From Jiangella sp. DSM 45060 (GTDB taxonomy: Bacteria; Actinomycetota; Actinomycetes; Jiangellales; Jiangellaceae), in assembly GCF_900105175.1 (NCBI RefSeq), contig NZ_LT629771.1:248001-312000 (forward strand): a stretch of 64,000 nucleotides of DNA, given 5' to 3'. Below the pieces are notes generated by a model that was given only the letters and a program-made list of their open reading frames with translations, ran no database searches and was not told the DNA's origin. Both the position numbers and the translations under genes were made by a program. Shown one piece after another: positions 5,583 through 7,434 of the stretch (positions within the stretch are counted from its first letter, which is position 1; each line of letters begins with the position of its first letter).

Positions 5583-6524
5583 GTGACCGCAGACCCGGTG
5601 CCCGCGACGTGCGACGGTGACCTGCTCGCGCGGCTGCTGGAGGCCCAGGCGGGCGTCCTGCACCGCCACGAGGTGCCGCCGGCGTTCGCCCGCCACGTGC
5701 GCCGGGAGGTGCGCGCCCGTCGCTGGCAGCGGATCGGGCGCGACGTCTTCGTCAGCCACAACGGCGAGCTGGGGAGCCGTCAACGGTTGCAGGCCGCCGT
5801 GAAGGCCTCACCACGTGGTGCCGCGCTCGCCGGCCTGACCGCAGCGGAGCTCGACGGACTCCAGGGGTTCGCCACGGGCGCCATCTTCGTCACCCAGCCC
5901 TGCGGCACGCGCGACCCACGGCTGCCCGGAGTCGTCGTCCACTACTCCCGGTTCCTCGCCGAGCCCGACGTCCACCCGCTCAAGGTCCCGCGACGGTGCC
6001 GGCTCCCGCGGAGCATCGTCGACGCCGCGGCGTGGGCGTCCGAAGACAACCGCGCGCGGGCGATCGTCCTCGCCGGGGTGCAGCAACGTCTGGTGACACC
6101 CGAGCAGCTGCGCGACGCGCTGTCACGGCGTGGTCCCTGCCTGCGCCACGCCTTGATCGCCGAGACCATCGACGACGCCGCCGGCGGTGTCGCGTCGGTG
6201 CCGGAGCGCGAGTTCGCCGTGCTCGTCCGGGCGTTCCACCTGCCCGAACCCGTCCGTCAGCGGATCCTCCGCCGAGCGGACGGACGCTGCTATCTCGACA
6301 CGGACTGGGCGGAGTTCCGCCTCGCGGCCGAGGTCGACGGCCGTGGTCACCTCGACGTCTTCACGTGGGATGCCGACCTCGATCGGGCGAACGACATCGT
6401 GATCGACGGCCGGACGCTGCTGCGCATCACGTCGTATGCCATCAGGCATCGGCCCGAGTCGGTCGGCGAGACCCTGCGCCGTGCGCTCATCGCCCGCGGC
6501 TGGGACGGGCGCACCGCCGGCTGA
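5583..6524 (+). CDS. AbiEi-like N-terminal HTH plus DUF559/Vsr-like nuclease-fold protein
   Basis: A 313-residue protein of an architecture common in actinobacteria. The N-terminal part (about residues 10-60, LEAQAGVLHRHEVPP...RRWQRIGRDVF) resembles the AbiEi-type antitoxin winged helix. The C-terminal part (about 215-305) resembles DUF559/Vsr-type PD-(D/E)XK folds: EFRLAAEVDGRGHLD, then RANDIVIDGRTLLRITSYAI. The E and D of the EVDGRGH strand are plausible catalytic acids. The biological role is unknown; an AbiEii-type toxin gene is not visible nearby. The start is GTG at 5583 with only a weak ribosome site. It is followed directly by a cluster of inverted repeats. Confidence 0.75.
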   Translation: MTADPVPATCDGDLLARLLEAQAGVLHRHEVPPAFARHVRREVRARRWQRIGRDVFVSHNGELGSRQRLQAAVKASPRGAALAGLTAAELDGLQGFATGAIFVTQPCGTRDPRLPGVVVHYSRFLAEPDVHPLKVPRRCRLPRSIVDAAAWASEDNRARAIVLAGVQQRLVTPEQLRDALSRRGPCLRHALIAETIDDAAGGVASVPEREFAVLVRAFHLPEPVRQRILRRADGRCYLDTDWAEFRLAAEVDGRGHLDVFTWDADLDRANDIVIDGRTLLRITSYAIRHRPESVGETLRRALIARGWDGRTAG

Positions 6525-6525
6525 C

Positions 6526-6670
6526 GATCAGGTGACGAAACGCCCCGCCAAGGCGTCGTTGTGTCACCTGATCGTTTTCCGTCCGCATGCTGAAGATGAT
6601 CAGGTGACACAACGCCACCCGCCCGGCCGCCTTCGTCACCTGATCCTTCGCGGGAAAACGATCAGGTGAC
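6526..6670. repeat. cluster of five alternating 11-bp repeats (GATCAGGTGAC)
   Basis: The 11-mer GATCAGGTGAC occurs on the + strand at 6526, 6598 and 6660, and as its exact complement GTCACCTGATC at 6563 and 6635. Successive copies alternate orientation with spacing of 37, 35, 37 and 25 bases, so several hairpins can form. Flanks are also partly conserved (GAAACG, ACAACG and CGTTTTCC near the copies). The block fills the gap between the convergent AbiEi-like gene and sdhB. It could act as a bidirectional transcription stop or be a REP/BIME-type element. Confidence 0.85.
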
Positions 6671-6681
6671 GAAGCCGGCGC

Positions 6682-7434
6682 TCAGACGCGGCGGAAGAGG
6701 AGGGCGCGCTTGACCTCCTGGATGGCCTTCGTCACCTCGATGCCGCGCGGGCAGGCGTCCGTGCAGTTGAACGTCGTCCGGCAGCGCCAGACGCCGTCGC
6801 GGTCGTTGAGGATCTCGAGGCGCTCCTCGGCGCCCTCGTCGCGCGAGTCGAAGATGAAGCGGTGGGCGCCGACGATGGCCTGCGGGCCGAAGTACTGGCC
6901 GTCGGACCAGTAGACGGGGCAGGAGGTGGTGCAGGCGGCGCACATGATGCACTTGGTGGTGTCGTCGTAGCGGGCGCGGTCCTCGGGGGACTGACGGCGC
7001 TCGCGGGACGGGTCGTTCCCGGACGTGACGAGGAACGGCATGATCGACTTGTACGCCTCGAAGAACGGATCCATGTCGACAACGAGGTCCTTGAGCACGG
7101 CGAGGCCCTTGATCGGCTCGACCGTGATCGGCTTGTCGATCGGCAGATCCTTGAGCAGCGTCTTGCAGGCCAGCCGGTTGCGCCCGTTGATGCGCATCGC
7201 GTCGGAGCCGCAGATCCCGTGCGCGCACGACCGCCGGAACGTCAGCGAGCCGTCGATCTCCCACTTGATCTTGTGCAGCGCGTCGAGCACCCGGTCGGTG
7301 CCGTGCATGGTGACGGTGTGCTCCTCCCAGCGCGGCTCGGTGTCGTTCTCCGGGTTGAACCGGCGCAGCCGCATCGTGACCTGGAAGGACGGGACGGCGC
7401 CCGCGGCGGGCGCGTCGGCGACAGCAGCAGTCAT
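6682..7434 (-). CDS. sdhB: succinate dehydrogenase iron-sulfur subunit
   Basis: A 250-residue SdhB. The [2Fe-2S] site reads CAHGICGSDAM...C, using C70, C75 and C90 with an aspartate (D78) in place of the third cysteine, as in E. coli SdhB. The [4Fe-4S] motif CIMCAACTTSCP and the [3Fe-4S] pattern CRTTFNCTDACP follow. The subunit passes electrons from the flavoprotein to quinone in the membrane complex II. Its ATG overlaps the sdhA stop by one base (TGATG), completing a sdhC-sdhD-sdhA-sdhB operon. The last coding bases sit next to the inverted-repeat cluster. Confidence 0.97.
   Translation of the reverse strand: MTAAVADAPAAGAVPSFQVTMRLRRFNPENDTEPRWEEHTVTMHGTDRVLDALHKIKWEIDGSLTFRRSCAHGICGSDAMRINGRNRLACKTLLKDLPIDKPITVEPIKGLAVLKDLVVDMDPFFEAYKSIMPFLVTSGNDPSRERRQSPEDRARYDDTTKCIMCAACTTSCPVYWSDGQYFGPQAIVGAHRFIFDSRDEGAEERLEILNDRDGVWRCRTTFNCTDACPRGIEVTKAIQEVKRALLFRRV

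Follow-up and report, generated by a model that had tools for sequence, protein, structure and literature searches.

What kind of element places identical short sites in alternating orientation within a single intergenic gap, and what keeps them there? We asked this of a locus in Jiangella sp. DSM 45060 (family Jiangellaceae), starting from a 64,000-nt stretch of its genome (the window, to whose numbering the positions of its features refer). The 11-bp motif GATCAGGTGAC occurs there in five exact copies, site 1 at 6526-6536 (+), site 2 at 6563-6573 (-), site 3 at 6598-6608 (+), site 4 at 6635-6645 (-) and site 5 at 6660-6670 (+), and the whole array (6526-6670) lies in its canonical orientation on the + strand. 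The first-pass annotation had described five alternating copies at 35-37 bp: copies and alternation are as it said, and three of the four start-to-start steps fit (37, 35 and 37 bp), the fourth being 25 bp. With at most one mismatch allowed, the window holds 6 matches to the motif against 1.13 expected, a number reached by 0 of 100 shuffles. The array also differs in composition from its surroundings, as had been noted earlier: its GC content is 0.600 as compared to 0.728 for the window, and only 0.34% of 145-bp windows taken at 20-bp steps are equally low.

The array fills the gap between two convergent genes, an AbiEi-like gene (5583-6524, +) that ends 1 bp before site 1 and sdhB (6682-7434, -). 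The former is recognised by the PADLOC AbiEi models (best E 5.3e-10), with no Pfam match at E<=1 and no NCBIfam match at E<=0.1; among the loci examined, its homologs stand at sdhB loci and beside one array at a contig end (L146). It is a neighbour of the array, and its membership in the element is not demonstrated. An Rfam scan of 6300-6900 returned four matches, all far under the gathering scores. Between the sites lie two variable interiors of 26 bp (6537-6562 and 6609-6634), the first of a type that is length-constrained throughout the family and free of stem covariation; a 24-bp linker A (6574-6597), conserved in the family with the consensus GTTTNGCGTCCACATGNTGGAGAT; and a 14-bp linker B (6646-6659), fixed in length and less conserved in sequence. 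The window alone could not have revealed the conserved linkers, the helical-step spacing described below or the non-pairing interiors, because other copies are needed to see them.

Such copies exist, and the motif is not unique to this locus. The whole genome (7,485,957 bp in one contig; G000) contains 30 exact motifs, as compared to 0 for a reversed control pattern. Of the 30, 20 belong to five arrays, and a lone pair at 4793741 accounts for 2 more. Three arrays have five exact motifs each, at genome positions 254515 (the array of the window), 3563083 and 3598080; two are partly decayed, with three exact motifs at 4424408, the rest having decayed, and two at 7300821. Words of the DNA uptake type can occur as inverted pairs 3' of genes, and in this respect the motif could pass for an uptake sequence or another genome-wide single-copy word; the small copy number and its concentration in arrays contradict this, and we give the idea practically no credence.

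Beyond this genome, a paired motif was found in 14 of 60 genomes (G000 included), namely in all 12 of the genus Jiangella, among them J. gansuensis (G003), J. anatolica (G005) and J. muralis (G010), and in Haloactinopolyspora alba (G018) and Phytoactinopolyspora alkaliphila (G021). Scanning a collection of genomes gave 112 stretches with the motif: J. muralis, J. anatolica, H. alba and P. alkaliphila contribute 102 of them and other Jiangella species another five. The last five lie outside the family (an Atopobiaceae MAG, Mycolicibacter, an Actinomycetes MAG, NaphS2 and Gordonia), and none of these has the array layout. The Atopobiaceae contig (L062, 499-626) carries an unrelated tandem repeat in which GATCAGGTGAC alternates with GTCACCTAAT-like sites at 16-17-bp steps. 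A sequence-only model of the layout, built from 43 of 45 arrays after two had been left out before alignment, matched 12 of 22 family genomes among 118 genomes at E 1e-3 (G006 and G015 among those with partial or weak matches only), together with one weak match outside the family (E 1.3e-4). At E 1e-6, scoring the best candidates per genome, 12 of 296 genomes of the class matched, all 12 in the family, and 0 of 274 outside it, with filters that lose weak matches at this scale. The array is thus an intergenic element of ~145 bp, so far found in only one actinobacterial family. Since 10 of the 22 family genomes are without a model match, any function it has is dispensable.

Aligning the copies revealed a common architecture. 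Of 114 motif clusters in the scanned loci, 57 arrays align as > 37 < 35 > 37/38 < 25 >, where arrowheads give site orientation and numbers the steps in bp, often with a further site 19 bp on ([19 >]); many other copies have this optional slot 6, at that distance downstream of slot 5, and the array of the window is without it. We counted spacings over distinct neighbouring pairs no more than 60 bp apart in the loci used. For pairs oriented '<>', the spacing is 25 bp (n=116) or 35/36 bp (n=153); for pairs oriented '><', it is 36-38 bp (n=273), less often 47-49 bp (n=20) or 25/26 bp (n=6), and in 4 cases 39-46 bp; same-strand pairs stand 19 bp apart (n=106). Motif spacings change by roughly one helical turn at a time. 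Among symmetrised 26-bp interiors (n=176), A/T peaks stand 11 bp apart at positions 2-3, 13-14 and 24-25, with the strongest period at 10.5-11 bp. Two observations count against a reading of these peaks as helical phasing: the 37-bp interiors (n=14) have no clear extra A/T peak, and in the A/T profile of 17 whole elements periods other than 10.5 bp dominate.

From these regularities and from the conservation and location described below, we infer protein binding, DNA wrapping and a boundary effect. The explanation we favour, and think somewhat likelier to be right than wrong, is that the element is an interspersed array of helically phased sites for a putative dsDNA-binding protein, which would fold the DNA into a wrapped complex and act as a BIME-like boundary at gene ends. 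The putative protein would recognise the 11-bp motif, with its core GATCAG[G/A]TG; four to six sites, mostly of alternating orientation, would be kept at a fixed helical phase, and this phase would let the bound protomers join, downstream of genes, into a single nucleoprotein complex that is wrapped or looped. Of the intervening DNA, mainly length and bendability would matter.

Where the arrays stand bears directly on such a role. Gene context was assigned with a home-made codon-based gene caller for 99 clusters of at least three motifs: 42 lie between convergent genes, 42 between codirectional genes, 7 between divergent genes and 8 at locus edges, with 0 inside predicted genes. Among other gaps of at least 60 bp, 30 were convergent, 165 codirectional and 100 divergent, so that, with the 8 locus-edge arrays left out, convergent gaps are enriched (odds ratio 7.6, p 8e-13) and divergent gaps depleted (p 2e-7). 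In 32 of 42 codirectional cases the array is nearer to the stop of the upstream gene, with medians of 49.5 and 110 bp. Together with the alternating units, the convergent enrichment agrees with the earlier suggestion of a BIME-like layout and location.

Two of these positions look old, as array sites 3' of sdhB and 3' of tig are common to three genera. The sdhB 3' site is occupied in Jiangella, Haloactinopolyspora and Phytoactinopolyspora. The tig site, before clpP, carries arrays in H. alba (L090) and P. alkaliphila (L153), where Pfam confirmed the genes, and in eight Jiangella genomes the tig-clpP gap holds a compact exact inverted motif pair (L054, L016, L033, L037, L038, L040, L042 and L044). 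Four of these eight genomes (G002, G004, G008 and G011) are without a model match; an exact pair of this compact length is absent from G006 and G009. Good conservation of the region next to clpP makes this site no more than suggestive.

Gene 3' ends and convergent gaps are also where one would expect a bidirectional terminator, or an mRNA 3'-end stabiliser, that works through RNA hairpins. The compact hairpin 3' of tig in Jiangella would fit this explanation, as would the strong predicted folding of the array (RNA z -10.0), a value to be read in the light of motifs that are complementary by construction. The pairing of the DNA between the motifs speaks otherwise. In 26-bp interiors (n=132), 35.3% of positions form Watson-Crick pairs as compared to 36.4% after shuffling, and within genomes there is no significant excess (J. 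muralis z -3.1, J. anatolica -1.1, H. alba +1.2); only the 27-bp interiors taken alone are slightly above shuffles (0.398 vs 0.358; 32 of 1000 shuffles reached the observed value). RNAalifold, run on 43 arrays, paired motif with motif and added three weak pairs in linker A, with a covariation term of -0.15, and both sides had changed in 2 of 24 predicted pairs; the motif pairs are nearly invariant and hence say little on complementary mutation. An excess of pairing beside linker A has a pooled z of 3.8 and, genome by genome, a z of 1.8 or less. Interiors, outward extensions and alignment together led us to reject an RNA hairpin with a covarying stem.

Nor do the arrays show the feature of an intrinsic terminator, a GC-rich stem followed by a T-run: we found no terminator-like site at 6400-6800, and of 195 outer array ends, 4 have TTTT within 12 nt. 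The first-pass annotation had proposed a composite convergent terminator; a canonical intrinsic one is not supported, but the array may be a convergent terminator of another kind, and the motif pairs may have a hairpin role. A terminator could, moreover, do without a constant 11-bp sequence and without spacing that changes by a helical turn at a time, and position 7 agrees between slots 1 and 2 in only 4 of 20 arrays of G021 (A-C on one strand, G-U on the other). Taken together, we consider the terminator or stabiliser improbable. A separate idea, that arrays insert into terminator loops, came from complementary flanks at L013 and was abandoned: over 138 arrays there was no excess (mean 5.48 vs 5.54 shuffled), the four G000 arrays alone giving 7.88 vs 6.32.

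Orthologous arrays show how the sites change in place. Scan-derived arrays were found by the exact motif, which biases motif conservation among them; the orthologous arrays were located through their flanking sequence, and intact copies only were compared. Between G000 and J. anatolica, the array at 3563083 differs at 0 of 55 motif positions and at 27 of 91 others; the sdhB array differs at 0 of 55 and 26 of 91 between G000 and G001, and at 0 of 33 and 17 of 50 between G000 and G009. Elsewhere the sdhB site is degenerate in J. gansuensis, and a single motif is left in G004. In the J. muralis subfamily, 2 of 484 motif cells are non-consensus as compared to 46 of 571 interior cells, and singleton changes show no difference (motif 2, interior 6; p 0.30), so that selection in place is not proved by this subfamily on its own. 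The orthologous comparisons indicate that the 11-bp sites and their spacing are kept while the intervening DNA drifts, to a difference of ~30%. They are best read as purifying selection that would maintain arrays at some loci, and they bear out the selection that had been proposed for this locus.

The same annotation had offered mobility as a further possibility, and dispersal is supported by the many copies, by empty sites and by recent amplification in J. muralis: arrays are gained and lost. At locus 3598080, viewed in 13 genomes, only G000 has the array. Among the others, apart from G018, the locus is empty in G001, G005, G007 and G011, has another palindrome in G003 and G009, extra genes in G004, G008 and G010 and unrelated sequence in G002, and in G006 it is split between two contigs, one with each flank. 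In L180, L193 and L194 (G004, G010 and G008), the convergent genes that flank the G000 array enclose, by eye, a candidate gene for a small secreted protein, and in G010 the region upstream of it is apparently present in a second copy. We also observed a second dispersed palindrome, approximately GTTGATCTTGGAGTAA..TTACTCCAAGATCAAC, which occupies convergent slots without arrays: 3' of sdhB in G002, G007, G010 and G011 (L168, L170, L165 and L163), at the 3598080 locus in G003 and G009 (L190 and L195), and in L290.

Amplification in J. muralis is recent: about a dozen copies with a core of ~135 bp match pairwise at 87-97% identity, and 60% of 62 interiors have a partner of at least 80% identity, as compared to 0 of 20 in J. 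anatolica and 4% of 68 in H. alba. Seven of the copies (L053, L087, L112, L086, L078, L080 and L052) carry the array within a shared ~290-bp MITE-like form whose imperfect terminal repeats read, by eye, about GGGTGTCNCCCGGGTC. The site of L087 is empty or nearly so in G000, G004 and G005, and that of L056 has 4 nt in G004 and 21 nt in G000; other relatives have these gaps filled with unrelated sequence. L087 has CTAG at both edges, but the aligned empty sites show several base differences. In core-only copies there were no terminal repeats and no established target duplication.

Presence and absence at orthologous gene pairs, close similarity among J. muralis copies and singleton counts that do not favour the motif would all suit a miniature mobile element whose sites are recognised in trans by a transposase or recombinase. 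Such an element would do nothing for the host, and conservation would reflect recent spread. The inverted array pairs of G017, ~115-255 bp apart with slot 6 facing outwards, would suit it too; they occur in 8 of 20 stretches (L223, L226, L227, L228, L232, L233, L239 and L240). Against it, motifs are intact in three diverged orthologous comparisons. Among the 25 largest clusters of neighbour proteins, inspected by eye, neither a dedicated neighbour gene nor a transposase stood out, and the missing target duplication of core-only copies weighs the same way. A transposon with arrays as its ends, an idea taken from L094, L128 and the G017 pairs, was rejected: the genes between the L094 arrays are ordinary, and the L128 interval has no clean reading frame in the one frame translated. 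An element without host role thus seems to us rather unlikely. In the explanation we favour, phased sites for a DNA-binding protein, the arrays would behave as mobile DNA in that they reach new intergenic sites, where some would then be kept by purifying selection.

Further support for a binding protein may come from variation in the motif itself. We counted slot variants in the best 20 arrays per genome for G017, P. alkaliphila and J. gansuensis; for G017, partial matches in L232, L236 and L241 were left out, and the 20 arrays come from 17 of 20 stretches. J. gansuensis retains GATCAGGTGAC in slots 1, 2, 4 and 5. In G017, slots 1 and 3 share the consensus GATCAGATGCA, as opposed to GATCAGGTGAC in slot 5. 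In P. alkaliphila these two slots have GATCAGATGAC, position 7 being A in slot 1 and G in slot 2 in 17 of 20 arrays each. Interiors in H. alba and J. anatolica resemble one another no more than column-shuffled controls do. Slot-specific variants common to many loci would fit coevolution with a putative binding protein or, in a weaker form, shared ancestry together with selection on the sites. A bolder version of our explanation makes the element a lineage-specific boundary that insulates convergent genes: a movable, helically phased array that would be assembled into a wrapped complex by a dedicated protein coevolving with the motif (dialects GATCAGGTGAC, GATCAGATGAC and GATCAGATGCA). This version we advance only tentatively, as one that probably claims too much.

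How does the array compare with known repeats? In a loose sense it is BIME-like, being dispersed, intergenic, located 3' of genes and variable between related genomes. Its regular alternating units and conserved linkers are features of the BIME type, and in alternating orientation, regular spacing and intergenic position it resembles the BIMEs built of REPs (PMC2817692). A classical REP/BIME mobilised by a RAYT would have units that are imperfect palindromes of 20-40 bp; those of the array are 11-bp sites separated by variable, length-constrained interiors. The associated TnpA-REP that the earlier annotation had suggested looking for did not appear: a search for Y1_Tnp (RAYT-type) found it in 0 of 15 genomes, including G000 and the array-rich G003, G005, G010, G018 and G021, as compared to 5 of 14 genomes in a control search. 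There is also no consistent head tag: among 424 exact motifs, counted in arrays with at least three, GTAG immediately follows 9 and precedes none. On the strength of the transposase, GTAG-head and covariation results, we do not class the array as a RAYT-type REP/BIME, an origin that we regard as very improbable despite the alternating orientation, conserved linkers and 3' intergenic location.

CGTC-tagged REPs, as PMC3733652 describes them, are dispersed palindromes found mostly between convergent or unidirectional genes, apparently without a dedicated transposase, and the array is like them in dispersal, gene context and the lack of a known transposase. Unlike these 20-40-bp palindromes, it is a multi-site phased array of ~145 bp and has no consistent tag: CGTC forms the four bases outside the motif in 0 of 424 cases before or after it (its complement GACG follows 3), and is readable across the motif edge where interior position 1 is G (52%). 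Short, non-coding, dispersed arrays recall MITEs, most of all in the seven longer J. muralis copies with their imperfect terminal repeats; core arrays also stand without such ends, and no parent transposase was found. The ends of the transposons Tn7 and Mu each contain several protein sites. The arrays are also multi-site, but their sites alternate in orientation, and the majority of arrays are solitary and located 3' of genes. Searches of the literature, judged by titles, yielded no such repeat in actinobacteria, and papers with the motif string are by title unrelated; on repeats or palindromes in Jiangella, the matching passages of PMC5292007 concern CRISPR.

BIMEs bind either IHF, between the REPs, or gyrase (PMC2817692), and the likely host effect of the array would be BIME-like as well: at the 3' ends of genes it would block or insulate transcription and supercoiling. 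It is debated whether parasitism or host function keeps REP/BIME-type repeats in bacterial genomes. In Jiangellaceae both signals can be separated within one element, whose sites and spacing appear to be held while the intervening DNA drifts and arrays are gained and lost. Our explanation predicts one bound protein, helical phasing of its sites and dialects that match protein variants, all of which would be testable by ordinary biochemistry.
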